64,000 nucleotides of DNA. Origin: an uncultured Bacteroidota bacterium (GTDB taxonomy: Bacteria > Bacteroidota > Bacteroidia > Flavobacteriales_F > PHOS-HE28). Positions 22,176 to 48,194 of the stretch are shown one piece after another; the first letter of the stretch is position 1; every line of letters starts with the position of its first letter. The position numbers were made by a program, and so were the translations under genes. The DNA lies in the NCBI GenBank assembly GCA_902826215.1, contig CADEDY010000001.1:1-64000 (forward strand), given 5' to 3'. Below the pieces are notes generated by a model. That model had not been told where the DNA came from. It worked only from the letters and a program-made list of their open reading frames with translations, and did not search any database.

Positions 22176-22202
22176 GGGACTGCCGATCGGCAAGGGTCGC
22201 GC

Positions 22203-22210
22203 CAAAGTAA
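22203..22210 (-). promoter_or_regulatory. Candidate -7 element of the sensor kinase; divergent intergenic region
   Basis: The minus strand reads TTACTTTG, one mismatch from TAnnTTTG, 27 bases before the ATG at 22175. The region 22176-22320 is shared with the giant gene on the plus strand. For that gene I see no convincing TAnnTTTG; a TTTG at 22236-22239 could be a -33 element. Confidence 0.4.
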
Positions 22211-22320: not shown

Positions 22321-25300
22321 ATGAAACAGGCACTACTCTTCGTGCTTGGGGTGCTCTTGACCGGGCTACTCCATGCACAGACCGGAACCGAGTTCTGGAT
22401 GGCCCCGCCGGACGTGACGTATTATCACAATGCGCCGGGGGATGAGCCCATCTATCTGAATGTCACTACAGGTGGCACGGCCGCTACGGTGACCATTTCC
22501 CAGCCAGCGAATGCCGCGTTCAACGGTGGTAGCCCCATCGTGCTGAATGTTGCTGCCAACTCGGCCGTGAGGTACAACATGACCTCGCTGAAGGCACAGT
22601 TGGAGACCCGCCCCACGAACAGCGTTCGGAACACAGGTCTGCGGATCCAAGCCACGGCCAACATCACCTGTTACTACGAGAGCAGTAACACGAACAACCC
22701 GGATATCATGGCCCTGAAAGGGGCTAACGGACTTGGGACGGAGTTCTACATCCCACTGCACAAGCACGCGCCGTTCTTTAACCACAGTTTTTCGCCGAAC
22801 AATGCGGATCTAGCGTTCGCTTCGTTCGACATCGTCGCAACCGAGAACGGTACGACGGTCCTGATCTATTCGCCGGTTGCAGTTGATGGGCACGCTGCGT
22901 TGGCTCCATTCACGGTAACGTTGGACCAAGGGCAGACCTATTCCTGCGCGAATACGGTTCCGGCAACACACACCGACCCGACGACGCACCCCTCCGGTGC
23001 TGTTGTGCTTGCCGACAAGCCTGTCGCTGTTTCCATCAAGGACGATTCGAACCACAATCCATCCGGCGGCTGCTACGACCTGATGATGGATCAGATCGTT
23101 CCCGTGAACATCCTAGGCACCGACTACGTGGCCGTGAAAGGCGCGCTGAACAATACGGGTGATGAGTCGCTCTTCCTGATGGCCGTGCAGAACAATACGC
23201 AGGTCTTCATCGATGGCAATGCGACCCCGGTGGCCACGCTTTTCGCTGGACAGTACTATCGCCACGATATGGATTATCTGGCCGGCGCTGCGAACAACGC
23301 CACGCTGGTAACGGGTTCCAAGCCACTCTACGCCATCCACGTCACTGGTTTCGGTTGCGAACAAGGCATGGCGATCCTGCCTCCGCTGAATTGCGCGGGG
23401 AGTACCCAATTGAGCTTCACGCGATCCACGAGTGAATCGTTCTTCTTGAACCTCCTGGTCCGCAACGGATCGCAGAACAATTTCGTGGTCACTGGCCCCG
23501 GGACGGCAACGATCCCGGGTTCGGCATTCCAAGCCGTGCCGGGTACCGGAGGAGAATGGATGGCCGCTCGGATCCAGTACAACACCACACAGGTTCCAGT
23601 GAACCAAGCGTTCATCGTTTCGAATACGACGGATGTGTTCTCCCTGGCCATCATCAATGGCGGAGGAAGTTCCGGCTGCCGCTACGGGTTCTTCTCGGAG
23701 TTCTCGGGTCGCATCGATGTAAGTGCAGGTCCGGACCAAACGCGCTGTGCGGGCGATGATGTGACCTTGACCGGTACCGTTTCCGGAGGATCCACGACCG
23801 GTATCTGGACAACCACCGGCAGCGGCGCATTCACACCGAGCGCTACCTCGCTCAACGCGACATACGAGCCGAGCATCGGTGATCTGGCGATCGGTACTGT
23901 TGCACTCACCTTGACCTCGACCGGCCCCTGTACACCGGAGAACGATCAGATGGTCGTCACCTTCAGTCCGAAGCCGATACCTGACGCCGGACCTGATCAA
24001 AGCGTTTGTCGCAACAATGCGGTGGTACAATTGGCCGGCTCCGTCTTGAACGCCGTGGGTGGCGTATGGACCGGAGGTGCCGGAGCCTTCCTGCCCAGCA
24101 ATAGCAATTTGAATGCGACCTATACACCGACAGCCGCCGAACTGACCGCGGGCCAGGTGTGGATCAAATTGACCTCCACAGGAAATGGAGTTTGTAGCGC
24201 TGTCGCGGACAGCATGCTCGTGACTTTCACGCTTTCCCCAACTGCCGATGCGGGTGCCGATCAAACACGCTGTGCGAACAACGCGGTTGCACTGTTGAAC
24301 GGTTCGTTCACTGTGGCGACAGGAGGTGTGTGGAGTGGCGGAGCGGGCACCTTCGACCCGAGCACCACGAACATGAGTGCACAGTACACACCGACCGCAG
24401 CGGAGATCTCCAGCGGGTCGGTGACGTTGACGATGACCACCACGGGCAACGGCAATTGCGTTGCAGTGAATGATCAAGTGCTGATCTCCTTCACGGCGGC
24501 ACCGGTGGTGAACGCGGGTGCAGCGGTATCCGTGTGTGCGAACAATGCGCTTGTCAGCTTGAGCGGAAGTGTGACCGGTGCGACCGGTGGGGTATGGAGC
24601 GGTGGCGCGGGCACATACAACCCGAACAACACAACGCTCGGTTCGACCTATACACCGACCGCAGCGGAGATCGCAGCGGGCACGTTGACGCTGACCTTGT
24701 CGAGCACAGGCAACGGCAATTGCAATGCGGTCAGCAGCAGCAAGGTGATCACATTCACCCCGGCCCCCACCGTGGAAGCTGGTACGAACGGCACCGTTTG
24801 CGCGAACAATGCGACGATCACATTGGCGGGTTCGCAAGTAGGTGCTGCTGGCGCGGTGTGGAGCGGCGGAACGGGCACCTACGCACCGAACAACGCTACG
24901 TTGAATGCAGTGTACACGCCGAGTGCTGCGGAACGCACGGCGGGGACGGTGACACTGACGCTAACTACGGTCGGAAACGGAACCTGTAATCCCGTCAGCG
25001 ATAACGTCACGTACGCGATCACTCCGGCTCCGACGGCGAACGCCGGTGCCGATCAGACCCTTTGCGCGAACAACGCGGTCGCTACACTGAACGGTTCGTT
25101 CACCGTGGCCACCGGCGGTGTGTGGAGCGGCGGTGCTGGCAGCTTCGACCCGAGCACCACGAACATGGGTGCGCAGTACACACCTACTGCTGGTGAGATC
25201 TCCAGCGGTTCCGTCACACTCACGTTGACGACCACTGGCAATGGCGGTTGTGTTGCCGTGACCGACCAGGTCCTCTTGTCCTTTACGGCGGCTCCTGTTG

Positions 25301-28300
25301 TGAGCGCTGGTGCAGCTGCTTCCGTTTGTGCGAACAACGTACAAGTGGCGCTGAACGGAACCGTGACCGGTGCAACGGGCGGTGCTTGGAGCGGTGGTTC
25401 CGGATCTTCCAACCCGAATGCGACCACGCTCAACGCGACCTACACACCAAGCGCTTCGGAGATCGCCGCAGGTACCGTTACGTTGACCTTGACCTCGACC
25501 GGCAACGGCAACTGTATCGCGGTAACGAGCAGCAAAGTGATCACGATCACACCTGCACCGACCGTTGATGCTGGCCCGAACGCGACGGTATGTGCGAACA
25601 ACGCGGCGATCACACTCGCGGGTTCGATCACTGTTGCGACCGGGGCCACTTGGAGCGGTGGTAATGGTACATATGCGCCGAACAACACCACTTTGAATGC
25701 AGTTTACACGCCCAGCGCTGCGGAACGCACTGCAGGTACAGTAACGCTCACACTTACCACGGTGGGCAATGGCAATTGCAATGCGGTGAATGACCAGGTG
25801 ACCTTCACCATCACACCAGCACCAACTGCGAATGCAGGTGCTGATCGCACGGTGTGCGCGAACAACGCTGTCGTCACTTTGAATGGAGGTTTCACGGTCG
25901 CTACGGGCGGTGTGTGGAGCGGTGGAGCGGGATCCTTCGACCCGAGCACCACGAACCTGGGTGCGCAGTACACACCTACTGCTGGTGAGATCTCCAGCGG
26001 ATCCGTGACGCTCACATTGACGACCACCGGGAACGGTGGCTGCTTAGCTGTCGCCGATCAGATGTCGATCGCCTTCACTCCGGCTCCTGGTGTGAATGCC
26101 GGTGCTGCTGTTTCGCTTTGCGCGAACAATGCACAAGTGTCCTTGAACGGAAGTGTGACGGGCGCCACCGGTGGCATTTGGAGTGGTGGAACGGGAACCT
26201 TCAACCCGAACAACACCACGTTGATCGCGACCTACACCCCGACCGCTGCGGAGATCGCGGCGGGCACATTGACACTCACCCTCACGAGCACGGGCAACGG
26301 TACATGTAGCCCGGTCACGAGCACCAAGGTGATCTCGTTCACACCAGCTCCTATCGTGAATGCTGGCGCTGATGGAAGTGTTTGCCGCAACAACTCGAAC
26401 ATCACCTTGGCTGGTTCCGTGATCGGTGCCACCGGTGGTATCTGGAGCGGAGGCACGGGCACCTACAACCCGAACAACACCACGCTGAATGCAGTGTACA
26501 CACCGAGCGCTGCTGAACGCACTGCGGGAACGGTGACCTTGACATTGATTTCTGCTGGCAACGGCACATGCAATGCAGTAAGCGATGCGGTCACGTATGC
26601 GATCACGCCTTCGCCCACAGCAAATGCGGGTGCTGATCAAGTGCTGTGCACGAACAATCCGGTGGCCTCCTTGGGCGGATCGGTCACGGTTGCATCGGGC
26701 GGCATCTGGAGCGGTGGTGCAGGCACCTTCGCACCGAGCACCACGAACCTGAACGCGACCTACACACCGACCGCTGCGGAGATCGCGAGCGGAGTTGTGA
26801 CTTTGACATTGACCACGACCGGTAACGGCACCTGCATCCAGGTAACGGATCAAGCGCAGTTGTCCTTCACGCCATCGCCTACCGCAAATGCAGGTGCGGA
26901 TCTTTCACTGTGCCGCAATAACGCAAGCTTCGCCTTGGGCGGATCGGTGACCGTTGCGACCGGTGGTATCTGGAGCGGTGGGTCGGGATCCTACACGCCG
27001 AACAACACCACGCTCAACGCGACGTATACACCAACGCCTGCCGAACTCGCTGCGGGCATGTTGACGCTGACCTTGACCACGACCGGGAATGGTAACTGCA
27101 ACGCGGTTTCCGATAGCCGCGTGATCACGTTCACGCCATCGCCGACCGTTGATGCGGGCTTGAACGGATCTGTCTGCGCGAACAACAGCGCGATCACATT
27201 GAACGGTTCGTTCACTGGATCGACGGGTGTTTCCTGGAGCGGTGGAACGGGCACCTACAACCCGAACAACACCACGCTCAACGCAGTGTACACGCCGAGT
27301 GCTGCTGAACGCACCGCGGGTACCGTGACGCTGACCTTGACCACCACGGGCAACAACAATTGCAACACGGTCAGCGACCAAGTGACCTTCAGCATCACGC
27401 CTGCTCCGACAGCGAATGCGGGTGCGGATCGCACGGTGTGTTCGAACAATGCGGCCGTTGCGCTTGCGGGTTCGTTCACTGTTGCGACCGGTGGTATCTG
27501 GAGCGGTGGTGCAGGCACCTTTGATCCGAGCACCACGAACATGGGGGCGATCTACACACCGAGCGCTGCAGAAGTGTCCAGCGGATCGGTGACCTTGACG
27601 ATGACGACAACGGGTAACAGCACTTGCACAGCTGTGGCCGATCAAATGACGATCACGCTGACGCCTGCTCCTGTCGTGAATGCCGGTGCCGCTGTTTCGC
27701 TTTGCGCGAACAATGCTCAGGTGAGCTTGACCGGCAGCGTTTCCGGTGCGACGGGTGGTGTGTGGAGCGGTGGAACCGGTACCTACAACCCGAACAATAC
27801 GACCCTCACCGCGACCTACACACCGACTGCTGCGGAGATCGCAGGGGGTACGCTGACCTTGACCTTGACCAGCACCGGCAACGGTACGTGCAATCCGGTG
27901 CAGAGTAGCAGGATGATCACCTTCACCCCATCACCGATCGTGAATGCGGGCGCCGATGGTTCCGTCTGCAACAACGCTTCGATCATCTCGCTCGGCGGTA
28001 GTGTGATCGGTGCGACTGGTGCGATCTGGAGCGGCGGTGCAGGTGTCTTTACGCCGAACAATACCACCCTCAATGCCACTTATACACCGACCGCTGCTGA
28101 GCGCACGGCAGGCACGGTGACCCTCACACTCACCTCCGCTGGTAACGGCAATTGCAATGCGGTGAGCGACCAGGTGACCTACAGCATCACCCCAGCGCCA
28201 ACGGCGAATGCGGGTGCGGGTCAGACCTTGTGTTCGAACAATGCGATCGCCACCTTGGGTGGATCATTCACGGTTGCGACCGGCGGGATCTGGAGCGGTG

Positions 28301-31300
28301 GGAACGGTTCCTTCAGCCCGAGCACCACGAACATGAACGCGACCTACACGCCGACCGCGGCGGAGATCGCGAACGGCAACTTAACGCTCACCTTGACCAC
28401 GACCGGCAACGGTTCATGCATCGCGGTGACCGATCAAGTCCAGATCAATTACACGCCAAGTCCAACTGCGAATGCTGGTCCGGATCTTTCGCTGTGCCGC
28501 AACAACGCCGCTGTGCCCATGGGCGGATCGGTGACTGTTGCGACAGGTGGTATCTGGAGCGGTGGTGTGGGTTCCTTCACGCCGAACAACACCACGCTCA
28601 ACGCAACCTACACACCGACCCCTGCAGAACTCGCAGCAGGCACATTGACACTGACCCTGACCACGACCGGCAACGGTAACTGCACTGCAGTATCCGATAG
28701 CCGAGTGATCACATTCACGCCTTCGCCAACGGTGGATGCCGGTGCGAACGCAACGGTGTGCGCGAACAACAGCGCGATCACCTTGAGCGGCTCGTTCACT
28801 GGTTCCACGGGTGCGATCTGGAGCGGTGCAACGGGCACCTACAACCCGAACAGTTCCACCATGAACGCGGTGTACACGCCGAGTGCTGCAGAGCGCGCAG
28901 CAGGTACTGTAACGCTGACGTTGACGACGGCCGGCAACGGCAACTGCAATGCGGTAAGCGACAATGTGACCTTCACGATCGCGCCTTCGCCGACGGCCAA
29001 TGCCGGTGCTGACCGCACGGTGTGTGCCAACAACGCGGCCGTTGCCTTGAATGGCTCGTTCACGGTAGCAACGGGAGGTGTGTGGAGCGGCGGCGCGGGC
29101 ACCTTCGACCCGAGCACCACCAACATGGGTGCGATCTACTCACCAAGCGCGGCAGAGATCGCGAACGGTTTCGCAACACTGACCTTGACCACGACCGGCA
29201 ACGGATCGTGCATAGCCGTCACCGATCAGATGACGATCAACTTCACGGATGCTCCAGTGGTGAACGCTGGCGCTGCGATCTCGCTATGCGCGAACAACGC
29301 CGTCGTGAGCTTGAATGGCAGCGTGTCCGGTGCTACGGGCGGTGCCTGGAGCGGTGGCTCGGGAACCTACAACCCGAACAACACCACACTGACCGCTACC
29401 TACACACCAAGCGCTGCGGAACTCGCCGCTGGTACGGTGACCTTGACGCTCACATCAACAGGGAACGGAATATGCAATCCGGTTTCGAGCAGCCGTACCA
29501 TCAGCTTCACGCCTGCGCCAACAGCTAATGCTGGTGCGGATGCGAGCGTGTGCTCCAACAATGCGAACATCACCTTGAGCGGCGCCTTCACCGGTGCGAT
29601 GGGTGCGATCTGGAGTGGTGGAACGGGGACCTACAACCCGAACAACGCCACGATGAACGCGGTGTACACGCCGAGCGCTGCGGAGCGCACGGCTGGTACC
29701 GTGACCTTGACGCTTACGACCGTGGGCAATGGAAACTGCAACGCCGTGAGCGATGCGGTGACCTTCACCATCACACCAACACCAACAGCGAACGCTGGTG
29801 CGGATCGCACGGTGTGCGCCAACAACGCGGCCGTGACCCTGGCCGGTTCCTTCACCGTTGCAACTGGTGGTGTGTGGAGCGGCGGCAATGGCACCTTCGA
29901 TCCGAGCACCACGAACATGGGTGCGATCTACACGCCGACCGCAACGGAGATCGCGAACGGTTCAGTGACCTTGACGATGACGACCACCGGCAACGGAAAT
30001 TGCATCGCCGTGGCTGATAACATGACGATCAACTTTACACCGGCTCCGGTGGTGAATGCGGGTGCTGCTGTTTCGCTTTGCGCGAACAACGCACAAGTGA
30101 ACTTGAACGGTAGCGTGAGCGGTGCGACCGGTGGTGTCTGGAGCGGAGGAACGGGAACCTATAGCCCGAACAACTCCACCTTGAATGCGACCTACACGCC
30201 GACCGCAGCGGAGATCGCTGGTGGCACGTTGACCTTGACCTTGACGAGCACCGGCAACGGTACGTGCAACCCAGTACAGAGCAGCAAGCTGATCAACTTC
30301 ACGCCTGCTCCTTCTGTGGATGCCGGTCCGAACGGAACGGTGTGCGCGAACAATAGCGCGATCACCTTGGCCGGTACGCAAAGTGGTGCGACTGGTGCTG
30401 TGTGGAGCGGCGGAACGGGAACCTACAGCCCGAACAACGCAACCTTGACCGCGATCTATACGCCAAGTGCCGCAGAGCGCATAGCAGGTACGGTCACATT
30501 GACCTTGACCACTGTTGGCAATGGCAATTGCAACGCAGTGAGCGACCAGGTGACGTACAGCATCACACCTGCACCGACGGCCAACGCCGGTGCCGATCAA
30601 ACCCTCTGCGCGAACAATGCCACCGCCACCTTGAGCGGTAGCGTGACCGTTGCGACGGGCGGTATTTGGAGCGGCGGAGCAGGCAGCTTCAGCCCGAGCA
30701 CCACCAACCTCAATGCGACCTACACGCCGACGGCGGCCGAGATCGCAAGTGGATCCGTGACGATCACGTTGACCACAACAGGTGTGGGCGGATGCGTGGC
30801 CGTTGCCGATCAGATGACCATCAGCTTCACGCCAGCGCCGATCGCGAACGCGGGTGCGCCGGCTTCGATCTGCGTGAACAACCCGCAGGTGACGATGACC
30901 GGTACCGTGACCGGTGCGACAGGTGGCGCGTGGAGCGGAGGACTCGGATCCTTCACACCGAACAACACGACCCTGAATGCGACCTACACGCCGACCCCGG
31001 CGGAACTCGCTGCGGGTACGTTGACCTTGACCTTGACCACGACCGGCAACGGCAATTGCAACGCCGTTACCAGCAGCCGCGTGATCACCTTCACACCAGC
31101 ACCCATCGTGGATGCCGGAGTGAACGGAACGGTCTGCGCGAACAACAGCGCGATCACCTTGAACGGTTCCTTCAGTGGAGCAACGGGTGCGATCTGGAGC
31201 GGCGGTGCAGGGACTTTCGCGCCGAACAATACCACCCTCAACGCGAGCTACACACCGACCGCAGCTGAACGTGCGGCGGGAACGGTGACCCTCACGTTGA

Positions 31301-34300
31301 CGTCTGCTGGCAACGGCAATTGCAACGCAGTAAGCGACCAGGTGACCTTCACCATCACACCAGCACCGACGGCGAATGCTGGAGCGGACATCGTGCTGTG
31401 CTCGAACAATGCGACCGCGAATTTGAACGGGGGCTTCACCGTGGCGACCGGTGCTATTTGGAGCGGTGGGGCCGGAAGCTTCAGCCCGAGCAATACGAAC
31501 ATGAACGCGACGTACACGCCGACCGCGAGCGAGATCTCGAACGGTTCCGTGACCTTGACCTTGACCACCACCGGCAACAACAACTGTGTGGCGGTGAGCG
31601 ACCAAGTGCAGATCTCCTTCACACCAAGTCCGACCGTGAATGCTGGTGCCGATGTTTCGCTGTGCCGCAACAACGCGGCTGTGTCCTTGAGCGGTGCGGT
31701 GGGTGTTGCCACAGGTGGGATCTGGAGCGGTGGTGCGGGGTCCTTCACGCCGAACAACACAACGTTGAATGCGACCTACACGCCTACTCCTACCGAACTC
31801 GCTGCAGGCACCTTGACCTTGACGCTGACCACTACCGGCAACGGCTTGTGCAACGCGGTGTCGGACAGCAAGGTGATCACCTTCACGCCTTCACCAACGG
31901 TGGATGCTGGCTCGAACGGAACGGTGTGCGCGAACAACAGTGCCATCACCTTGAATGGTAGCGTCGTTGGCGCAGGTGGTGCGACATGGAGCGGCGGAAC
32001 GGGCACGTACAGTCCGAACAACCAAACGCTGAATGCGACCTACACACCGAGCGCTGCGGAACGCACTGCTGGTACAGTGACCTTGACGCTGACCACGACC
32101 GGTAACGGCAACTGCAACGCGGTGAGCGACCAGGTGAGCTTCAGCATCACGCCTGCACCGACGGCGAATGCCGGTGCCGATCGTGTGTTGTGCGCGAACA
32201 ATGCTTCGACCGGATTGTCCGGCGCCTTCTCCATCGCCACGGGCGGTATCTGGAGCGGCGGATCCGGCACCTTCGATCCGAGCACCACGAACATGAGCGC
32301 GATCTACACGCCGACTGCGGCGGAGATCACGGCAGGTAGCGTGCTGCTGACCTTGACCACCACGGGCAACGGTCTGTGCAATGCGGCTACCGATCAAGTG
32401 CTCTTGACCTTCACCGACCCACCTTCTGCGAACGCAGGACCTGACGTCACGCGCTGCGCGAACAACGCTGCGGTCGCTCTCGGTGGAAGTGTGGTTGTAG
32501 CGACCGGAGGAACATGGACCGGTGGAACCGGAACGTTCACGCCGAACGCGAACACCTTGAATGCGACCTATAACCCGGGTCCTGGTGATCTCGCCGCAGG
32601 CCAGGTGACCTTGACCTTGTCCACCACGGGCAATGGTAACTGCACACCTGCCACGGATACGAAGATCATCACGTACACCCCTGCACCGATCGTGAATGCA
32701 GGTGCGAGTGGAGCTGTTTGCGCCAATGCTGCCGCCATTGCCTTGAACGGAAGTGTGACCGGTGCTGTGGGTGGTGTGTGGAGCGGTGGAAACGGATCCT
32801 TCAGCCCGAACAACATCACACTGAGTGCGACCTACACACCGACCGCAGCGGAGATCGCCGCAGGAACGGTAACGCTGACCCTGACCTCTGCAGGTAACGG
32901 TCAGTGCAACGCGGTCTCAAGCAACGTGACCTACACCATCACGCCTGCACCGACCGTGAACGCCGGTGTCGATCAATCCGTTTGCGGTAACAATGCAGCT
33001 GCGAACATGAGCGCGGTGCTCACGGTTGCAAGCGGTGTTCAGTGGTCCGGTGGATCGGGCCTCTTCAACCCAGGCAACACCGCGCAGAACATCACCTACA
33101 CGCCTTCGCCGATCGAAGTCGCGAACGGCTCCGTGACCTTGATCGCAACGACCACGGGCAACGGCAACTGCGCGGCAGTGACCGATGCGGTGACCATCAC
33201 CTACACGCAAGCGCCGCTCGCGAACGCGGGTCCGGATCAAACGGTAAGCTCGAACAACGCGAACACGACGCTCGCAGGTTCCTTCTCCATCAGCACAGGT
33301 GCCGCTTGGAGCGGTGGCTCGGGCACTTACAACCCGAACAACACCACAATGAACGCGGTGTACACACCGACGCCGCAGGAGATCGCCGCAGGAAGTGTGA
33401 CACTGACCTTGATCACCACAGGCAATGGCAGCTGCTCGCCGGCGACGGATCAGATGACGATCTTCTTCGGCGCTGCCCCGACCGCGAATGCGGGAACGGA
33501 CCAGACCGTTTGTGCAAACAATGTGAACGTGCAATTGAACGGTGCTGTCACCATCGCGACCGGTGGTATCTGGAGCGGTGGAACAGGAACCTACAGCCCG
33601 AACAACAGTGCGCTGAACGCGATCTACACACCGAGCGCTACGGAGATCGCTGCCGGGACGGTGACACTGACACTCACCACGGTGGGCAATGGCAACAGCA
33701 ATCCGGAGAGTGATCAGTTCCTGATCACGATCACCCCTGCGCCGATCGCGAACGCTGGTGCGAACATCACCATCTGTGCGAACCAAGCAACGGCCCAACT
33801 CACGGGTGTGGTGAACAATGCCACCGGTGGTATCTGGAGCGGCGGTTCGGGCACTTTCAACCCGAGCAATACGAACCTCAACGCGACCTACACGCCGACC
33901 TTTGGCGAGATCGCAGCAGGTACCGTGACGCTGACCTTGAGCAGCACCGGAAACGGGCTGTGCAATGGTGTGTCCGATCAAGTACTGATCTCGATCGCAC
34001 CTGCGCCGGTAGTGAGCGCTGGTGTGGATCAAACGGTGTGCTCCAACAATGCCAACGTGCAGATGGCCGGATCCGTGAGCAATGCGGGTGGCGGTATCTG
34101 GAGCGGTGGAACCGGAACGTTCTCACCGAGCATCAACGCACTGAATGCGGTTTACACGCCGAGTACTTCAGAGCTCGCGAACGGTTCCGTGACGCTTACA
34201 CTGAGCAGCACCGGCAACGGAAGCTGTGTATCCGTGAGCGATCAGATGACGATCTTCTTCTCGCAAAGCCCTGTGGTGAACGCAGGTATGGATCGCACGG

Positions 34301-37300
34301 TGTGCGCCAATGACCCGACCGTGATCCTCAACGGCTCCGTGACCATTGCAACCGGCGGTGTGTGGAGCGGTGGCGGTGGAACCTTCACCCCGAACGCGAA
34401 CACGCTCAATGCGAGCTACTACCCGAGCCCTGCTGAAGTGGCCCTGGGAACAGCTACGCTGACCTTGACATCGACAGGCAATGGCTTGTGCAACGCCGTG
34501 AACGATCAGATGGTGATCACCATCATCGCATCGCCGAGCGCCAATGCAGGCAATGACATCTTCGTCTGCTCGAACAACGCGCAAGTGCAGCTCGGCGGTT
34601 CCGTAAGTGGTGCTGGCGGTGGCCAATGGAGCAGTGGTGCGGGCACCTTCACGCCGAGCATCGCTTCACTGAACGCGATCTACACACCTACTGCAGCGGA
34701 GATCGCCGGGGGTACATTGAATCTGACCCTCACCACGATCGGCAACGGCAACTGTGTGCCGGTATCGGATCAAGTGCTGATCACCTTCACCGCTTCGCCA
34801 ACGGCAAATGCCGGTGTGGATGGAGTGCGCTGCGCGAACAATGCGAGCATCCAACTGAACGGAAGTGTCACCGTAGCGAACGGCGGTACCTGGTCCGGCG
34901 CGGGAGGAACCTTCACCCCGAATGCAAATGCGCTGAACGCGGTGTACACACCAAGCGCAGGCGAACTCGCTGCAGGTAGCGTGACCTTGACCTTGACCAC
35001 CACGGGCAACAACGGTTGCACGGCGGTAAGCGATGATGTGAGCTACACCTTCACACCTGCACCAACAGCGAACGCTGGTGTGGATGCCTTCACCTGTGCG
35101 AACAATGCATCCGTGGTGTTGAACGGTTCGATCACCGTGGCCACGGGTGCGCTGTTGTTCGGTGGATCTGGAACGTTCACACCGAACAACAGCACGCTCA
35201 ATGCGACCTACGTGCCTAGCGCATCGGAGATCACTGCTGGTACCGTAGCACTCACATTGACCACGGTCGGTAACGGCACGTGCAACCCGGTGAGCGATCA
35301 GGTGGTGATCACCATCAACCCTGCGCCGATCGTGGATGCTGGAACACCGTTGACCTCCTGCGCGAACAATCCTTCAGCTCAGTTGGCAGGATCCGTGCAG
35401 AATGCAACAGGTGGTATCTGGAGCGGTGCAGGAACTTTCTCCCCAAGTGCCACGAACCTGAGCGCGACCTACACGCCAAGTGCTGCCGAGGTGGCCGCTG
35501 GTACTGCGACCATCACCCTGACCAGCACCGGCAACGGTCTGTGCAATGCGGTATCCGCGCAAGTGGTGTTGACCATCACCGCTGCTCCGATCGTGGATGC
35601 GGGTGCTGAACAAGTGCTCTGCGCGAACAACGCGGTCGCTCAATTGGCCGGTCAAGTGACCAATGCCACGGGTGGCGCCTGGAGCGGTGGTGTCGGCACC
35701 TTCGCGCCGAACGCCAACGCACTGAATGCAGCCTACACGCCTAGTGTTGCGGAGATCGCAAGCGGAGGCCTCTGGCTGTACCTCACGACCACCGGGAATG
35801 GCGGTTGCTTGTCCTCACGTGATTCCGTTCATGTCACCTTCACACCTGCACCAACGGTGAATGCCGGATCCGATCTGCACATCTGCGCGAACACGGCACA
35901 GATCAACTTGACCGGTGCGGTCACCATCGCGACCGGCGGTATATGGAGTGGCGGCAACGGCGCCTTCACACCTGCGAATACCGCACTGAACGCGGCGTAC
36001 AGCCCGACAGCGGCGGAGATCGCTGCTGGCCAGTTCACCTTGGTGCTCAGCACCACGGGCAACGGGAATTGCACTGTTGTGCGCGACAGCCTGTTGGTGA
36101 TCGTCGATCCGGTTCCTGTGGTGAATGCGGGTCCTGATCAGCAGATCTGCGCGAACAACTCGAACGTGCAGTTGAACGGCTTCGTGGGCAACGCGCCAGG
36201 CGGTGCATGGAGCGGTGGTGCAGGGACATTCTTCCCGAGCAACACCATGCTGGCCACACAGTACATGCCTACGGCTGCTGAAGTAGCAAGCGGCTCGCTG
36301 ACGCTGACGCTGACGTCCACCGGAACGACCTACTGCACCGCAGTGGCCGATCAGATGACGATCGTCTTCACCGGTGCACCGATCGTGGACGCTGGTAACG
36401 ACCTGCAGATCTGCGCGAACAACAGCGCAGTGCAGTTGACCAGCAACGTGACCAACGCGAGCGGCGGCACGTGGACAGGCGGTAGCGGAGCTTTTGCACC
36501 GAGCGCCAACGTACTGAGCCCGGTGTACACACCAACGCCCGGTGAACTTGCCGCAGGAACACTTTCGCTCTACCTCGCAAGCACCGGGAACGGCAATTGC
36601 ATCGCAGTACGCGATACGGTCGTCGTGACCTTCACGCCGGCACCGACCGCCAATGCGGGTGCGGATCTGGACGTGTGCACGAACAACCCGCTGGTGACTT
36701 TGAACGGTTCCATCACAGTGGCCACCGGAGCACAGTGGACGGGCGGTCTCGGCACCTTCACGCCGAACGCACAAACGTTGAACGCGCAGTACGCGCCGAC
36801 ACCGTTCGAACTGCAAAGCGGATCGGTGCAGTTGACCTTGACCACCACGGGCAATGGCAACTGTATCGCGGTCGCGGATCAAATGACGATCACCGTAACG
36901 CCTTCACCGGTGGTGGATGCGGGTGCTGATGTGATCACCTGCTCGAACCAATTGCAGGTGCCGCTGATCGGTATGGTGCAAGGCGGCGCGACCACGGGTC
37001 TGTGGAGCAGCAGCGGTACGGGCACCTTCAGTCCGAGCGCCGCAACGCTCAACGCGACCTACATCGCCAGCAGCCTCGATTCGCTTAATGGAACCGTGGA
37101 CCTCACACTCACCTCGACCACCAATGGCCTGTGCAACGCGGTGAGCGACATGATGACCGTGACCATCCTGCCGAACGCGATCGCGAACGCCGGTGTGGAC
37201 CAAACGGTGTGTTCTACCACGAGCACCGTTCAGATGAACGGAACGATCACAGGCAATGCAACACAAGGTCAGTGGACGACCACCGGCGCTGGTTCCTTCA

Positions 37301-40300
37301 CACCGAATGCGAATGCCGCCAACGCTGTGTACCAGTTCGCACCGAGCGATCAAGGCACGATCACCTTCACCTGGAGTGTGAACAGTTGCGACAACGCCAT
37401 GGATCAAATGGTGGTGACGATCACGCCGGAGTCCGCTGTGGATGCTGGTGTGGATCAAGTGACCTGCTTCGGCGATCTGGATGTGGTGATCAATGGTAGC
37501 GTGAGTGGTGCTTCGAGCACCGGTACATGGAGCACCTTGGGAAGTGGCACGTTCGCCAACCCGAGCACAGCGCTGTCCAACGTTTACCAAGCCAGCGCCA
37601 ACGATCAACTCGCGAACGGTGTGTACCTGGTGTTGACCGCCACGAACACGGGAGTTTGCCAAACAGCGGCCGATACGGTATTCATCGCGATCCAGCCTGC
37701 GGGCACGGTGAATGCTGGTGTTGACGTGACCGCTTGCGCGAACAACGCAGCGACACAACTCAACGGCATCTTGACCGGTGATGCCACGCAAGTGCAGTGG
37801 ACCACGTCAGGAACGGGTTCGTTCTTCCCGAACTCGAACGTGCTCACACCGACGTACATCCCGAGCGCGATCGATACCGCCATCGGTAACCTGACGCTCA
37901 CGTTGAGCGCACCAGGCACCTGCAACAATGCGACGGACGACCTCTTCCTGACGCTGACCCCAGCGCCGTATGTGAATGCCGGACCGGACCAGACCTATTG
38001 TGATCAAGTGACGCAGTTCGACCTGAACGGTATGATCTCCGGCATCACCAACGCAGGCCAGTGGACCACCACAGGTACGGGCACGATCGCCAATGCGGGA
38101 GCGTTGAACACGACCTACACGGCTAGTGCTGCGGACGTGGCCAATGGACGCATCGACTTCATCCTGACCTCGCTCAACAATGCGAATTGCAATGCGGTCA
38201 GTGATGCCATGACCATCTGGCTCACCGACGGCATCATTGTAAGCGCCGGTCCGGATCAGAACGTGTGTGTTGCTTCGGATCATGCGAACATGCAAGCGAC
38301 GGTGCAGAACGGATCCCCTTCAGGCGTCTGGAGCGCTACGGGTTCCGGCACCTTCAGCCCAAGCGCTGATTTGCTGAACGCGCAGTACTTCTTCTCTGCC
38401 GCCGATGTGGCCAACGGATCCGTGGTACTCACGTTCGTTGCGACGAACACGGGTACCTGCCCAACGACCCAGGACCAGATGGTGCTCACCTTCGGCAACA
38501 GCAGCTTCGCGTATGCCGGTGCAGACCAAACGCTCTGCGCCAACGCGCCGATCGCACAACTCGCAGGCAACTTCAGCGGAGGTGCGCAAGGCATCCAGTG
38601 GAGCAGCACGGGTTCTGGCTTCTTCAGCAACAACTCGGATCCCAATGCGACCTACACCATGAGCGCGTCGGATATTGCAGCGGGCACCGTGCAGCTGAGC
38701 CTCACGACGATCACCAACGGCGCGTGCACACCGAGTACCGATGTCATGGTGCTTTCGGTGAATGCACTGCCCAACATCACAGCGGGTGCGGATATCATCG
38801 CTTGCACAGCGGCTCCGGTGCAGATCACAGCGAATGCTGCGAACGCTGGCGGAGGCATGTGGACCACCTCGGGAACAGGTATGTTCTTCGATCCGAACGC
38901 ACTGGCAACGCTCTACACGCCGAGCGCGGCTGATAGCCTCGCAGGTAGTGTGACGTTGACCGTGACCACGACCGGTGTAATGCCTTGCAGCGCAGTATCC
39001 GATGAGCTCGTGATCAGCTTCGGCGGCGGTCTTGATGCCGATGCAGGCATGGACGTGATCGCGTGCAGCACGGATCCGAACATCGCACTGAATGGTGTCG
39101 TGGCGGGTACCACAACAGGAACGTGGAGCACAAGTGGTACGGGTTCGTTCACGCCATCGGTGAGCGCGCTCAACGCCACCTACATCCCAGGTGCTGCGGA
39201 TTACGCGATCGGTACCATAAACCTGATCCTGAGCACCACCAACAACCAAGGCTGCCCTGCTGGACGTGACACCCTGGTGGTGAGCTACCATGTACCACCG
39301 ACCGTGAATGCCGGTGTGGATGTGCTGCTCTGCGATGGCTTGGAGAACGTAGCGCTTAACGGTACGGCGCAGAACCAAGGCTCCATCCAGTGGACCACCA
39401 TGGGCTCGGGCACCTTCGCACCGGATGCAACGATGCTGAACGCCGTGTACACCCCGACCGCCAACGACAGCATCGCCGGTGGCGTGTACCTGGTGCTCAC
39501 CGCATTTGGAACGGGCACGTGTAGCAACGCTTCTGACTCGGTCTTCATCGACATCGGCCCGACCCGTATCGCGAATGCCGGTGCCGACCAGACCGTCTGC
39601 GCCGACATGGACCCGATCGCTTTGGGCGGATCGATCGCGGGTGTGAGTGGTGGCGTTTGGAGCACCAACGGAACAGGAACCTTCCTGCCCGATGCGACGA
39701 CACTCGGTGCGACCTATGTGCCGAGCGTGACGGACATGGCCTTCAACGAATTGCGCTTCATCCTTACCACCACGGGCAACTTGGGCTGCCCTGCGGATGC
39801 GGATACGATGCTGGTGAGCTTGCAAGCACGACCTACCGTGAATGCGGGGTCCGACCTCAGCACGTGCGACGCATCAGTAGCGGTGGATGTGGCCGGATCC
39901 TTCACCGGTGCCGCAGGGGTCTTGTGGACCACGAACGGTTCCGGCGTCTTCCTGCCGAGCAACACTTCCGCGAATGCCAGCTACCAGCCGGGCGCCACGG
40001 ATGAGCAATTGGGAACAGTACGCATGATCCTCACCACCACCGGCAACGGTGTGTGTGCGGCGGCCAGCGATACCCTGATGCTCTCCTTCGTGAACCCGCT
40101 GCAAGCGGACTTCAGCTGGAGCAACGCTTGCGCCGGATCACAGACCGTGTTCACCAGCACAAGCACCACCACGGGTGCACCGATCATCGGTTGGAATTGG
40201 AGCTTCGGCAACGGAGGCAGTGGAAGCGGTCCGCAGACCACCACGAGCTTTGCCACTCAGGGGCAATACCTCGCAACATTGACGGTGTTCGCGCAAAATG

Positions 40301-40860
40301 GATGCAGCAGCACGATCACGCGCACCATCGATGTGCTGAACGCACCTGTAGCGGGCTTCACGATCGCGGGTGATCCCTTCACGGATACGCCGATCGAATT
40401 CACGGACAACTCCTTCGGGGCGACGAACTGGCAATACGACTTCGGCGACGGTACAGGAGCCATTGTCGCTGAGCCGGTGCACGAATACACCGAAGCGGGT
40501 CAGTTCATCATCGTGCAAACGGTGACCAACGCAGCAGGCTGTGCGGATCGGGATTCGCTCTTGATCAGCATCGAGGAGAAGGACATCCTTCCACCGAAAT
40601 TGCCGAACGCATTCAGCCCGAACGGCGACGGGGTGAACGATGTGTTTTACGTGCGCGGTGGACCATTCGAGACCATCGAGCTGAAGATCTACAATGGATG
40701 GGGCGAACTCATCTTCGAGACTACGGATCCGACCTTCGGATGGGATGGCACGCACGATGGCAAGCCGGAGATTAATGGAGTGTATGTGTACTCGGTGATC
40801 GCCAAGTCGGTGGATGGACTGGAACATGACCGTTCGGGCAAAGTGATCCTGGTACGATGA
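22321..40860 (+). CDS. Giant repetitive T9SS-secreted surface protein (SprB-like adhesin)
   Basis: 6,179 residues from the ATG at 22321, which starts a clean signal peptide (KQALLFVLGVLLTGLLHAQ); an ATG eight codons earlier is possible. Order: an IgGFc-binding-like N-terminal region (about 22-465; TEFWMAPPD, later YNMTSLKAQ and TEFYIPLHKH), 62 tandem units of about 88 residues (5,450 residues), two PKD-like domains (WNWSFGNGG and WQYDFGDGTG) and a C-terminal type-B T9SS sorting domain (PNAFSPNGDGVND, then IYNGWGELIFET, then GVYVYSV). Each unit follows NAGxDxxxCANN...GSVTxATGGxWSGGxGTF...YTPTAAE...TTGNGNC. The units are rich in Thr, Ala, Gly and Asn and nearly lack Lys. By analogy to Flavobacterium SprB it should be a long surface filament for adhesion or gliding. 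Its stop overlaps the sprF-like start. Confidence 0.9.
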   Translation: MKQALLFVLGVLLTGLLHAQTGTEFWMAPPDVTYYHNAPGDEPIYLNVTTGGTAATVTISQPANAAFNGGSPIVLNVAANSAVRYNMTSLKAQLETRPTNSVRNTGLRIQATANITCYYESSNTNNPDIMALKGANGLGTEFYIPLHKHAPFFNHSFSPNNADLAFASFDIVATENGTTVLIYSPVAVDGHAALAPFTVTLDQGQTYSCANTVPATHTDPTTHPSGAVVLADKPVAVSIKDDSNHNPSGGCYDLMMDQIVPVNILGTDYVAVKGALNNTGDESLFLMAVQNNTQVFIDGNATPVATLFAGQYYRHDMDYLAGAANNATLVTGSKPLYAIHVTGFGCEQGMAILPPLNCAGSTQLSFTRSTSESFFLNLLVRNGSQNNFVVTGPGTATIPGSAFQAVPGTGGEWMAARIQYNTTQVPVNQAFIVSNTTDVFSLAIINGGGSSGCRYGFFSEFSGRIDVSAGPDQTRCAGDDVTLTGTVSGGSTTGIWTTTGSGAFTPSATSLNATYEPSIGDLAIGTVALTLTSTGPCTPENDQMVVTFSPKPIPDAGPDQSVCRNNAVVQLAGSVLNAVGGVWTGGAGAFLPSNSNLNATYTPTAAELTAGQVWIKLTSTGNGVCSAVADSMLVTFTLSPTADAGADQTRCANNAVALLNGSFTVATGGVWSGGAGTFDPSTTNMSAQYTPTAAEISSGSVTLTMTTTGNGNCVAVNDQVLISFTAAPVVNAGAAVSVCANNALVSLSGSVTGATGGVWSGGAGTYNPNNTTLGSTYTPTAAEIAAGTLTLTLSSTGNGNCNAVSSSKVITFTPAPTVEAGTNGTVCANNATITLAGSQVGAAGAVWSGGTGTYAPNNATLNAVYTPSAAERTAGTVTLTLTTVGNGTCNPVSDNVTYAITPAPTANAGADQTLCANNAVATLNGSFTVATGGVWSGGAGSFDPSTTNMGAQYTPTAGEISSGSVTLTLTTTGNGGCVAVTDQVLLSFTAAPVVSAGAAASVCANNVQVALNGTVTGATGGAWSGGSGSSNPNATTLNATYTPSASEIAAGTVTLTLTSTGNGNCIAVTSSKVITITPAPTVDAGPNATVCANNAAITLAGSITVATGATWSGGNGTYAPNNTTLNAVYTPSAAERTAGTVTLTLTTVGNGNCNAVNDQVTFTITPAPTANAGADRTVCANNAVVTLNGGFTVATGGVWSGGAGSFDPSTTNLGAQYTPTAGEISSGSVTLTLTTTGNGGCLAVADQMSIAFTPAPGVNAGAAVSLCANNAQVSLNGSVTGATGGIWSGGTGTFNPNNTTLIATYTPTAAEIAAGTLTLTLTSTGNGTCSPVTSTKVISFTPAPIVNAGADGSVCRNNSNITLAGSVIGATGGIWSGGTGTYNPNNTTLNAVYTPSAAERTAGTVTLTLISAGNGTCNAVSDAVTYAITPSPTANAGADQVLCTNNPVASLGGSVTVASGGIWSGGAGTFAPSTTNLNATYTPTAAEIASGVVTLTLTTTGNGTCIQVTDQAQLSFTPSPTANAGADLSLCRNNASFALGGSVTVATGGIWSGGSGSYTPNNTTLNATYTPTPAELAAGMLTLTLTTTGNGNCNAVSDSRVITFTPSPTVDAGLNGSVCANNSAITLNGSFTGSTGVSWSGGTGTYNPNNTTLNAVYTPSAAERTAGTVTLTLTTTGNNNCNTVSDQVTFSITPAPTANAGADRTVCSNNAAVALAGSFTVATGGIWSGGAGTFDPSTTNMGAIYTPSAAEVSSGSVTLTMTTTGNSTCTAVADQMTITLTPAPVVNAGAAVSLCANNAQVSLTGSVSGATGGVWSGGTGTYNPNNTTLTATYTPTAAEIAGGTLTLTLTSTGNGTCNPVQSSRMITFTPSPIVNAGADGSVCNNASIISLGGSVIGATGAIWSGGAGVFTPNNTTLNATYTPTAAERTAGTVTLTLTSAGNGNCNAVSDQVTYSITPAPTANAGAGQTLCSNNAIATLGGSFTVATGGIWSGGNGSFSPSTTNMNATYTPTAAEIANGNLTLTLTTTGNGSCIAVTDQVQINYTPSPTANAGPDLSLCRNNAAVPMGGSVTVATGGIWSGGVGSFTPNNTTLNATYTPTPAELAAGTLTLTLTTTGNGNCTAVSDSRVITFTPSPTVDAGANATVCANNSAITLSGSFTGSTGAIWSGATGTYNPNSSTMNAVYTPSAAERAAGTVTLTLTTAGNGNCNAVSDNVTFTIAPSPTANAGADRTVCANNAAVALNGSFTVATGGVWSGGAGTFDPSTTNMGAIYSPSAAEIANGFATLTLTTTGNGSCIAVTDQMTINFTDAPVVNAGAAISLCANNAVVSLNGSVSGATGGAWSGGSGTYNPNNTTLTATYTPSAAELAAGTVTLTLTSTGNGICNPVSSSRTISFTPAPTANAGADASVCSNNANITLSGAFTGAMGAIWSGGTGTYNPNNATMNAVYTPSAAERTAGTVTLTLTTVGNGNCNAVSDAVTFTITPTPTANAGADRTVCANNAAVTLAGSFTVATGGVWSGGNGTFDPSTTNMGAIYTPTATEIANGSVTLTMTTTGNGNCIAVADNMTINFTPAPVVNAGAAVSLCANNAQVNLNGSVSGATGGVWSGGTGTYSPNNSTLNATYTPTAAEIAGGTLTLTLTSTGNGTCNPVQSSKLINFTPAPSVDAGPNGTVCANNSAITLAGTQSGATGAVWSGGTGTYSPNNATLTAIYTPSAAERIAGTVTLTLTTVGNGNCNAVSDQVTYSITPAPTANAGADQTLCANNATATLSGSVTVATGGIWSGGAGSFSPSTTNLNATYTPTAAEIASGSVTITLTTTGVGGCVAVADQMTISFTPAPIANAGAPASICVNNPQVTMTGTVTGATGGAWSGGLGSFTPNNTTLNATYTPTPAELAAGTLTLTLTTTGNGNCNAVTSSRVITFTPAPIVDAGVNGTVCANNSAITLNGSFSGATGAIWSGGAGTFAPNNTTLNASYTPTAAERAAGTVTLTLTSAGNGNCNAVSDQVTFTITPAPTANAGADIVLCSNNATANLNGGFTVATGAIWSGGAGSFSPSNTNMNATYTPTASEISNGSVTLTLTTTGNNNCVAVSDQVQISFTPSPTVNAGADVSLCRNNAAVSLSGAVGVATGGIWSGGAGSFTPNNTTLNATYTPTPTELAAGTLTLTLTTTGNGLCNAVSDSKVITFTPSPTVDAGSNGTVCANNSAITLNGSVVGAGGATWSGGTGTYSPNNQTLNATYTPSAAERTAGTVTLTLTTTGNGNCNAVSDQVSFSITPAPTANAGADRVLCANNASTGLSGAFSIATGGIWSGGSGTFDPSTTNMSAIYTPTAAEITAGSVLLTLTTTGNGLCNAATDQVLLTFTDPPSANAGPDVTRCANNAAVALGGSVVVATGGTWTGGTGTFTPNANTLNATYNPGPGDLAAGQVTLTLSTTGNGNCTPATDTKIITYTPAPIVNAGASGAVCANAAAIALNGSVTGAVGGVWSGGNGSFSPNNITLSATYTPTAAEIAAGTVTLTLTSAGNGQCNAVSSNVTYTITPAPTVNAGVDQSVCGNNAAANMSAVLTVASGVQWSGGSGLFNPGNTAQNITYTPSPIEVANGSVTLIATTTGNGNCAAVTDAVTITYTQAPLANAGPDQTVSSNNANTTLAGSFSISTGAAWSGGSGTYNPNNTTMNAVYTPTPQEIAAGSVTLTLITTGNGSCSPATDQMTIFFGAAPTANAGTDQTVCANNVNVQLNGAVTIATGGIWSGGTGTYSPNNSALNAIYTPSATEIAAGTVTLTLTTVGNGNSNPESDQFLITITPAPIANAGANITICANQATAQLTGVVNNATGGIWSGGSGTFNPSNTNLNATYTPTFGEIAAGTVTLTLSSTGNGLCNGVSDQVLISIAPAPVVSAGVDQTVCSNNANVQMAGSVSNAGGGIWSGGTGTFSPSINALNAVYTPSTSELANGSVTLTLSSTGNGSCVSVSDQMTIFFSQSPVVNAGMDRTVCANDPTVILNGSVTIATGGVWSGGGGTFTPNANTLNASYYPSPAEVALGTATLTLTSTGNGLCNAVNDQMVITIIASPSANAGNDIFVCSNNAQVQLGGSVSGAGGGQWSSGAGTFTPSIASLNAIYTPTAAEIAGGTLNLTLTTIGNGNCVPVSDQVLITFTASPTANAGVDGVRCANNASIQLNGSVTVANGGTWSGAGGTFTPNANALNAVYTPSAGELAAGSVTLTLTTTGNNGCTAVSDDVSYTFTPAPTANAGVDAFTCANNASVVLNGSITVATGALLFGGSGTFTPNNSTLNATYVPSASEITAGTVALTLTTVGNGTCNPVSDQVVITINPAPIVDAGTPLTSCANNPSAQLAGSVQNATGGIWSGAGTFSPSATNLSATYTPSAAEVAAGTATITLTSTGNGLCNAVSAQVVLTITAAPIVDAGAEQVLCANNAVAQLAGQVTNATGGAWSGGVGTFAPNANALNAAYTPSVAEIASGGLWLYLTTTGNGGCLSSRDSVHVTFTPAPTVNAGSDLHICANTAQINLTGAVTIATGGIWSGGNGAFTPANTALNAAYSPTAAEIAAGQFTLVLSTTGNGNCTVVRDSLLVIVDPVPVVNAGPDQQICANNSNVQLNGFVGNAPGGAWSGGAGTFFPSNTMLATQYMPTAAEVASGSLTLTLTSTGTTYCTAVADQMTIVFTGAPIVDAGNDLQICANNSAVQLTSNVTNASGGTWTGGSGAFAPSANVLSPVYTPTPGELAAGTLSLYLASTGNGNCIAVRDTVVVTFTPAPTANAGADLDVCTNNPLVTLNGSITVATGAQWTGGLGTFTPNAQTLNAQYAPTPFELQSGSVQLTLTTTGNGNCIAVADQMTITVTPSPVVDAGADVITCSNQLQVPLIGMVQGGATTGLWSSSGTGTFSPSAATLNATYIASSLDSLNGTVDLTLTSTTNGLCNAVSDMMTVTILPNAIANAGVDQTVCSTTSTVQMNGTITGNATQGQWTTTGAGSFTPNANAANAVYQFAPSDQGTITFTWSVNSCDNAMDQMVVTITPESAVDAGVDQVTCFGDLDVVINGSVSGASSTGTWSTLGSGTFANPSTALSNVYQASANDQLANGVYLVLTATNTGVCQTAADTVFIAIQPAGTVNAGVDVTACANNAATQLNGILTGDATQVQWTTSGTGSFFPNSNVLTPTYIPSAIDTAIGNLTLTLSAPGTCNNATDDLFLTLTPAPYVNAGPDQTYCDQVTQFDLNGMISGITNAGQWTTTGTGTIANAGALNTTYTASAADVANGRIDFILTSLNNANCNAVSDAMTIWLTDGIIVSAGPDQNVCVASDHANMQATVQNGSPSGVWSATGSGTFSPSADLLNAQYFFSAADVANGSVVLTFVATNTGTCPTTQDQMVLTFGNSSFAYAGADQTLCANAPIAQLAGNFSGGAQGIQWSSTGSGFFSNNSDPNATYTMSASDIAAGTVQLSLTTITNGACTPSTDVMVLSVNALPNITAGADIIACTAAPVQITANAANAGGGMWTTSGTGMFFDPNALATLYTPSAADSLAGSVTLTVTTTGVMPCSAVSDELVISFGGGLDADAGMDVIACSTDPNIALNGVVAGTTTGTWSTSGTGSFTPSVSALNATYIPGAADYAIGTINLILSTTNNQGCPAGRDTLVVSYHVPPTVNAGVDVLLCDGLENVALNGTAQNQGSIQWTTMGSGTFAPDATMLNAVYTPTANDSIAGGVYLVLTAFGTGTCSNASDSVFIDIGPTRIANAGADQTVCADMDPIALGGSIAGVSGGVWSTNGTGTFLPDATTLGATYVPSVTDMAFNELRFILTTTGNLGCPADADTMLVSLQARPTVNAGSDLSTCDASVAVDVAGSFTGAAGVLWTTNGSGVFLPSNTSANASYQPGATDEQLGTVRMILTTTGNGVCAAASDTLMLSFVNPLQADFSWSNACAGSQTVFTSTSTTTGAPIIGWNWSFGNGGSGSGPQTTTSFATQGQYLATLTVFAQNGCSSTITRTIDVLNAPVAGFTIAGDPFTDTPIEFTDNSFGATNWQYDFGDGTGAIVAEPVHEYTEAGQFIIVQTVTNAAGCADRDSLLISIEEKDILPPKLPNAFSPNGDGVNDVFYVRGGPFETIELKIYNGWGELIFETTDPTFGWDGTHDGKPEINGVYVYSVIAKSVDGLEHDRSGKVILVR
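23719..40089 (+). repeat. 62 tandem units of about 264 bp (88 codons)
   Basis: Counting the NAG/DAG unit starts gives 62 units. Unit starts fall on an exact 264-bp lattice from unit 3 (24244) to unit 45 (35332), that is 42 units with no net insertion or deletion. Unit 45 is 261 bp, and units 51-62 vary in length. Conserved positions in a unit: Cys near 10, Trp near 30, Tyr-Thr-Pro near 48-50, Cys near 72. Confidence 0.95.
24244..32163 (+). repeat. Ten copies of a three-unit (792-bp) higher-order repeat
   Basis: Units 3-32 span 7,920 bp, exactly 30 x 264. Every third unit (5, 8, 11, 14, 17, 20, 23, 26, 29, 32) carries AAER in place of AAEI/AAEL and ends in ITPAPT or a close form. First units of each triad carry SFTVATGG or SVTVATGG and mostly STTN; second units mostly carry GAAVSLCANN or GADLSLCRNN. 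Confidence 0.88.
40600..40857 (+). other. Type-B T9SS C-terminal sorting domain of the giant protein
   Basis: The last 86 residues match the gliding-motility-associated (CHU_C/TIGR04131-type) tail: LPNAFSPNGDGVNDVF, a central IYNGWGELIFE, FGWDGTHDGK and a final GVYVYSV...GKVILVR. This tail directs export through T9SS and, in known cases, needs a PorP/SprF-family partner. Confidence 0.9.
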
Positions 40861-41867
40861 ACGAAAAGCTGAACACGATGAACGCAAAGAAAAACCTGAT
40901 GCTGTTGATGCTCGCTGTTTGCGGGACGTCAGTGGTGCGTGCACAGGATGGCCAGTTCTCGCAGTACGATGCTTCGCAAGTACTTCTGAACCCGGCTCTG
41001 ACAGGCATGTACGAGAATGCCGATTTCCGAATGGCGAGCAGTGTACGTAGCCAATGGAACAGCTTGTCCAGCGCATTCCTCACCACGGCCTTCGCCTACG
41101 ATGTGTCGTTGCAGAAGCGCTACGGATTCGGCACTTACGTGAACAACTATAACCAAGCGGGCGTAGTGAACACCCTTCAGTTCGGCACGACGGCCGCTTA
41201 CAACGTATCGGATAGCAAGGCGAACCACACGCTCTCCGTTGGCGTGAATTTGGGCTTGATCTACAAGAAGGTGAATGATCAGCAATTGGTCTGGGATGCG
41301 CAGTACGACAACGGGTACTTCAACAGCGACCTGCCGAGCGGTGAATCCTTCCAGAAGGGCCAACGGTTGATGCCCGAAGTAGCTGCGGGCTTGGCATACC
41401 GCTCAACGGATGGCCGCAAAATGGTGAATCCGTACGGCAATTTCGCCCTCTTCCATGTCACGACGCCGGATGAATCCATCTTCCGCACGGAGAAGAGCGA
41501 TATGCCGATCCGCTACATGATGAATGGAGGCGTACGAGTAGAGGTGATGGATGACATCTACATTATCCCGATGGGGATCTATATGCGGCAAGGCAATGAT
41601 CAGCTGATCAATGCCGGCTTGCTGGCTGAAGTCGCGATCATGGGTTCCATGTACAGTGTGGTGGGTGGTGCGTCTTACCGCTTGAACGACGCCATCGTTG
41701 CGCAGATCGGCCTGAAGCACAAGAGCGCGATGTACCGTTTCAGCTACGACGTGAATACCTCGTCACTGAAAGCCTACACCAACCGGAACGGGGCGTTCGA
41801 ATTCACCATCTCCTATTTCGGCACACACTCCGGAAGGGAGCGGCGGATGACGAGCAGTGCGTTCTAG
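40857..41867 (+). CDS. PorP/SprF family type IX secretion membrane protein
   Basis: 336 residues from the ATG at 40857, which overlaps the giant gene's stop (ATGA). A second ATG at 40878 gives 329 residues and starts the signal peptide directly (KKNLMLLMLAVCGTSVVRAQ), so either start could be used. The mature protein begins with the family signature QDGQFSQYDASQVLLNPALTG and continues as amphipathic beta strands to a C-terminal FEFTISYFGTH, fitting an outer-membrane barrel. In Flavobacterium johnsoniae SprF is needed for secretion of its neighbour SprB. The same layout here argues that this protein serves the giant adhesin. Confidence 0.9.
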   Translation: MNEKLNTMNAKKNLMLLMLAVCGTSVVRAQDGQFSQYDASQVLLNPALTGMYENADFRMASSVRSQWNSLSSAFLTTAFAYDVSLQKRYGFGTYVNNYNQAGVVNTLQFGTTAAYNVSDSKANHTLSVGVNLGLIYKKVNDQQLVWDAQYDNGYFNSDLPSGESFQKGQRLMPEVAAGLAYRSTDGRKMVNPYGNFALFHVTTPDESIFRTEKSDMPIRYMMNGGVRVEVMDDIYIIPMGIYMRQGNDQLINAGLLAEVAIMGSMYSVVGGASYRLNDAIVAQIGLKHKSAMYRFSYDVNTSSLKAYTNRNGAFEFTISYFGTHSGRERRMTSSAF

Positions 41868-48132: not shown

Positions 48133-48167
48133 GGTTCCTTGGGTTGCAGGTAAATCAGTGGTCGGGT

Positions 48168-48175
48168 CAAAGATA
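48168..48175 (-). promoter_or_regulatory. -7 promoter element of the bactofilin gene
   Basis: The minus strand reads TATCTTTG, a perfect TAnnTTTG, 35 bases before the ATG at 48132. No clear -33 element is seen; the region upstream overlaps the 3' end of porW. Confidence 0.55.
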
Positions 48176-48194
48176 ATGGCGCGGCGCACTTATC

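Follow-up and report, generated by a model that had tools for sequence, protein, structure and literature searches.

What does a reading frame of more than six thousand codons encode when it ends against a gene of the PorP/SprF family, and is its product driven along the cell surface, as SprB of Flavobacterium johnsoniae is, or held static? We asked this of a locus in a 64,000-nucleotide stretch of DNA (hereafter the window) that forms the start of contig 1 in a 51-contig, 4.16 Mb genome of an uncultured Bacteroidota bacterium. A previous reading of the letters alone (the sequence-only reading) had proposed a giant secreted adhesin fused to its own secretion partner. The triplet organisation of the stalk, the conservation of the head and the relation to the GhpA protein of Aureispira, all described below, were absent from it.

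An intact adhesin gene and its neighbour

The giant type-B T9SS adhesin gene occupies positions 22321-40860 as a single uninterrupted frame of 6,179 aa with zero internal stops, as the sequence-only reading had it. The features of the locus, all on the forward strand, are as follows.

22321..40860 (+): giant type-B T9SS adhesin, 6,179 aa; open frame, with the start at 22321 backed by ortholog start sites
22321..22380 (+): signal peptide, by inspection, its pattern recurring in orthologs; mature protein from about AQTGTEFW
22375..23715 (+): N-terminal head, IgGFc_binding PF17517, by family match and ortholog identity
23716..24240 (+): repeats 1-2, one-to-one orthologous between species
24241..32160 (+): repeats 3-32, the length-variable shaft; ten ABC triplets of 264 aa (792 bp) each
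32161..40095 (+): repeats 33-62, the base section, mostly one-to-one between species
40096..40590 (+): two PKD domains, by PF18911 and PKD matches in the PDB
40600..40857 (+): type-B T9SS C-terminal sorting domain, by TIGR04131, CHU_C and a match to the GhpA C-terminus
40857..41867 (+): PorP/SprF-family shuttle, starting at 40857 (ATGA overlap) or 40878; no Cys past the signal peptide

The longest exact direct repeat within the gene is shorter than 45 nt, which makes collapse in a short-read assembly unlikely. Divergence between repeat units is substantial (pS ~0.6, pN ~0.17-0.39), and among orthologs pN/pS is 0.18 for the head and 0.19 for the tail, with values of 0.31-0.35 for PorP, the PKD region and the stalk. 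Because these ratios are low in every part, the frame is under protein-level selection throughout; the short exact repeats and this purifying selection together led us to exclude a chance frame or a collapsed assembly. Upstream lies a divergently oriented gene for a 1,220-aa sensor histidine kinase (window 18543-22205, - strand).

Profile searches upheld the domain architecture that had been read from the letters. The protein begins MKQALLFVLGVLLTGLLHAQ, by eye a typical signal peptide, and its head matches IgGFc_binding (PF17517) at 117.4 bits (cut-off 25.6) over residues 136-424. PKD_4 (PF18911) is matched in two stretches after the stalk, and the C-terminus matches both CHU_C (PF13585; 59.2 bits, cut-off 27) and the type-B CTD model (TIGR04131; 42.7 bits, cut-off 35). 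The neighbouring gene is likewise what it had been taken for, matching the PorP family TIGR03519 at 165 bits (cut-off 90.55) and PF11751 over its full length (121.8 bits, profile positions 3-273). Of the large regions the head is the most conserved, at 78-88% identity between the window and nine orthologs; mean ortholog identity is 83% for the head, 70% for the stalk and 69% for PorP, so that a conserved tip is carried on a variable shaft. The AlphaFold2 model of the head, made with ten sequences, reached a pLDDT of 63.5, too poor to judge a fold, and we made no use of its Foldseek matches.

The description of adhesin and partner as fused by a 4-base overlap requires revision. The letters ATGA are present, with the ATG at 40857 and the last base of the TGA at 40860. 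It is doubtful, however, that the overlap is used: of 20 orthologous junctions, 14 lack it and place the porP start 5-19 nt past the adhesin stop, close to where the window's second porP ATG lies (40878, 17 nt after the stop). The overlap occurs in the other 6 of the 20, window included. Judging from these alignments, the real window porP start may be 40878 instead of 40857. A 4-base overlap is also possible in six other type-B/PorP pairs of this genome. It is thus an ordinary arrangement, neither conserved nor a special fusion, and the case for it as the defining feature of the locus is correspondingly weaker; adhesin and porP are two separate genes, and "fused" is incorrect.

Triplet organisation and structure of the stalk

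A profile built from the adhesin's own repeats recovered exactly 62 stalk units, the number previously counted, of ~88 aa each and spaced 85-92 aa apart at aa 467-5924. There are two Cys per unit, each retained in 61 of the 62. Within repeats 3-32, identity between units is 0.74-0.76 at offsets of 3, 6 and 9, as against 0.58-0.60 at other offsets up to 8, and in a leave-one-out assignment the triplet phase was correct for 30/30 left-out units. Length shows the same periodicity. Repeat totals in complete orthologs (62, 62, 59, 59, 53, 53, 53, 53, 41 and 38) are all 2 modulo 3, and the indels inferred from repeat-order alignment comprise 3, 6, 9, 21 or 24 units, always multiples of three. One of these, a 3-repeat indel in two orthologs, lies in the base section near repeats 43-46. 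The 30-repeat base has no overall period of 3, although in some orthologs its first 15 repeats give weak signals, and there is accordingly no support for triplet order constraining the stalk as a whole.

Homogenisation of the shaft copies after speciation is suggested by their nucleotide sequences: the window's copies resemble one another a little more (identity 0.778) than they resemble those of other species (0.72-0.74). This excess of within-genome similarity is not seen in two sister species.

Beyond the genus, a sample of the class showed an excess of similarity at offset 3 in 18 of 20 arrays, small in most of them, and in 9 of 10 families with the window's own included; because the arrays are related, a sign test on these counts overstates their independence. 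An exception is a 35-repeat array in genome G176 (L145), whose best similarity is at offset 4. Genome G380, from another family, is also strongly ordered in triplets, but the columns that carry its phase do not match those of the window (Spearman 0.09), so shared structural columns underlying both sets of triplets are unsupported. The product of the G380 gene (L124, contig 55 from ~53841) is 6,597 aa long and combines the same head with 65 repeats; the gene possibly has a 4-base overlap with PorP. We discarded a frame of 27,093 aa in contig 2 of genome G339 (L135-L138) as an artefact of an N run, 24,000 of its residues being X.

One general reading of this periodicity is that long T9SS stalks of the Bacteroidia are built and resized in steps of three Ig/PKD-like domains: resizing would go by threes because three domains make up one structural period of the fibre, and the gene would act as a ruler with a three-domain tick. 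We regard this as unlikely. It is simpler to suppose that a three-unit block was repeatedly duplicated and that the resulting order then kept unequal crossing-over in phase.

An AlphaFold2 model of three repeats, in line with the sequence-only reading's suggestion of modelling two or three units, has a pLDDT of 96.8 and an Ig-like fold. Its best VIA-align match in the PDB is the base of GhpA (9fly; Z 13.4, rmsd 7.9 over 235 residues, 23% identity), while the top Foldseek matches are cadherins, with GhpA fifth. Because the Ig-like fold is common, more weight falls on the sequence match: a profile of the stalk searched against the PDB found GhpA as its sole match (E 6.3e-44, 8 stretches passing), most strongly at GhpA residues 4,675-5,721. 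The adhesin tail also matches the GhpA C-terminus (E 1.1e-7), whereas no match between the head sequence and GhpA appeared at E values up to 10. By this sequence comparison, the stalk repeats are homologous to the basal, membrane-proximal repeats of Aureispira GhpA.

As for length, 49 DUF11 domains of L. aerophila form a filament of ~180 nm (PMC13319060), or ~3.7 nm each, which gives ~230 nm for 62 repeats plus the head and PKD domains. SprB is ~200 nm long (PMC12635249). A stalk of 230-250 nm is plausible by this analogy, and the previous estimate of roughly 250 nm, made at about 4 nm per unit, is reasonable as an upper bound.

Pairing, and proposed secretion and anchoring

The proposal that adhesin and PorP form a dedicated secretion-display pair is well supported by co-occurrence and by analogy with F. 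johnsoniae. The head and a full-length PorP ortholog occur in exactly the same genomes of the genus, 22 of 45, an order-level search having yielded just these 45; one further, incomplete genus genome has a 42-aa PorP fragment at 76%. These PorP orthologs are 57-80% identical, and the other PorPs listed are at ~33% or less. Outside the genus we examined 13 relatives in which the head is accompanied by five or more stalk repeats. PorP lies downstream in 12 of them, in one case beyond an apparent frame break, and the 13th is cut off; in five relatives without repeats, no PorP was seen in the fetched flank. The order head-stalk-CTD-PorP recurs in other families. The natural reading is that the partner secretes and displays the adhesin, since in F. 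johnsoniae type-B substrates depend on cognate PorP/SprF shuttles (PMC12618676) and SprB is a binding partner of SprF (PMC9143113).

The genome has the machinery that such a pair would use. It encodes the translocon protein SprA (TIGR04189, 2,528 bits) and GldK (587 bits), and probably GldJ, to which one 596-aa frame gives three partial matches with summed scores near the cut-off. Type-B adhesins are numerous, with 54 matches to the tail model and 15 PorP genes in this genome alone. The window also encodes the T9SS lipoprotein PorW/SprE (48195-50822, - strand; NF052312, 624 bits), adjoined by a bactofilin at 47671-48189, with ATP synthase genes nearby.

We consider it probable, though well short of certain, that adhesin and PorP make up a surface display module whose fibre is static or not driven by the gliding track and whose length is tuned by three-repeat blocks. 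The adhesin would be exported by Sec and recognised by the T9SS translocon (SprA) through its type-B tail. The neighbouring PorP/SprF-family barrel would then receive it and hold it in the outer membrane, C-terminus down, with the Ig/PKD-like stalk raising the IgGFc_binding-type head from the cell to bind a putative ligand. The module would work as a static, or at least non-track-driven, attachment fibre. Over evolution, its length would be tuned as three-repeat blocks close to the tip are added or lost, while head and base stay fixed.

The static element of this reading turns on the cysteines of the carrier. A disulfide joining the C-tail Cys-X-Cys of SprF to Cys343 of GldK couples SprF to the moving track, and continuous helical motion of SprB requires that bond, although cysteine-less SprF still contacts the track briefly (PMC12635249). 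The window partner has one Cys, within its signal peptide, and none thereafter, and a C-tail Cys is absent from all 21 PorP sequences of its ortholog group. The parallel with SprF implied by the sequence-only reading is less well supported, because this carrier has none of the C-tail cysteines through which SprF is linked to the gliding track. Five other PorPs of the genome (G000 L053, L057, L060, L061 and L062) do have a Cys within their last few residues, in endings such as VVACPTF and VVPCPKF, and one of these genes adjoins GldJ; the other ten of the 15 lack a C-terminal Cys. Past the N-terminal region, GldK has just one Cys, residue 340 in RNRQGCFLGNF, near the position of F. johnsoniae Cys343. 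Given this GldK Cys and the five Cys-tailed PorPs, a track link is seemingly available in the organism, though not to the window partner, and a C-terminal Cys is possibly the mark of track-linked carriers among PorPs. With a barrel that has no Cys for the GldK disulfide, the window adhesin is probably not driven by the track. Whether or not a carrier has a C-tail Cys offers a testable, sequence-based prediction of gliding versus static carriers.

The principal competitor is a mobile, SprB-type gliding adhesin whose PorP partner would ride the GldJKN track through non-disulfide contacts. Giant size and gene order resemble SprB-SprF, and GldK and probably GldJ are at hand. The neighbourhood speaks for it as well: there is no PorE-like peptidoglycan anchor gene adjacent to the pair, the next gene being atpG, and in F. 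johnsoniae the one tested type-B protein that behaves as static has a PorE-like neighbour while the mobile ones have none (PMC12618676), a pattern that counts against static behaviour here. Set against this are the cysteine-free mature partner and ortholog C-tails, when SprB needs the SprF-GldK disulfide for helical motion (PMC12635249), and the C-tail Cys carried by other PorPs of the same genome. We weight static about three times mobile, and regard gliding as rather unlikely.

Lower still we place a multi-chain appendage in which copies bundle through the stalk, comparable to the heptameric grappling hook of Aureispira. The homologous stalk, the GhpA base as best VIA-align match, the matching tail and the similar lengths (6,179 versus 5,898 aa) fit such a bundle, but the head gives no sequence match to GhpA and Ig-like stalks also occur in single-chain adhesins; we think it distinctly improbable. 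Least probable of all is a protein released into the surroundings as a long linker within a matrix or between cells: a repeat-rich stalk with its well-retained Cys would suit a stable extracellular fibre, yet a type-B tail together with its cognate PorP partner provides anchoring to the cell surface (PMC9143113, PMC12618676), and we give this very little credence. The static or non-track-driven fibre remains our preferred reading. Its conserved head, triplet shaft and fixed base constitute a natural length series of 38-62 repeats in which reach could be set against attachment.

Comparison with known systems

The window pair belongs to an already known kind, a type-B adhesin with its cognate PorP/SprF shuttle; experiments in F. 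johnsoniae have established such pairing (PMC12618676, PMC9143113). SprB (669 kDa; PMC9127263) is likewise a type-B T9SS substrate of giant size, rich in repeats, whose gene is followed directly by one of the PorP/SprF family, and carrier-dependent secretion and anchoring, which we infer for the window pair, would be common to both. In contrast to SprF, the window partner has no C-tail Cys-X-Cys and so no evident disulfide link to GldK. The F. johnsoniae set Fjoh_3952-Fjoh_3951-Fjoh_3950, for which static anchoring has been proposed (PMC12618676), shares the type-B tail and cognate shuttle; the window pair lacks its PorE-like third gene.

The head family is common to the PF17517 proteins of the Bacteroidia, for which IgG binding is a family name only. 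Relatives of the head occur in 99 of 395 sampled class genomes, mostly on proteins of ~600-3,000 aa, whereas the window head sits on a 62-repeat stalk. GhpA of Aureispira sp. CCB-QB1 (PDB 9flp, 9fly and others) shares homologous membrane-proximal stalk repeats, a homologous T9SS tail and a similar size with the window adhesin; between the heads there is no sequence match, and hook and heptamer are described for GhpA.
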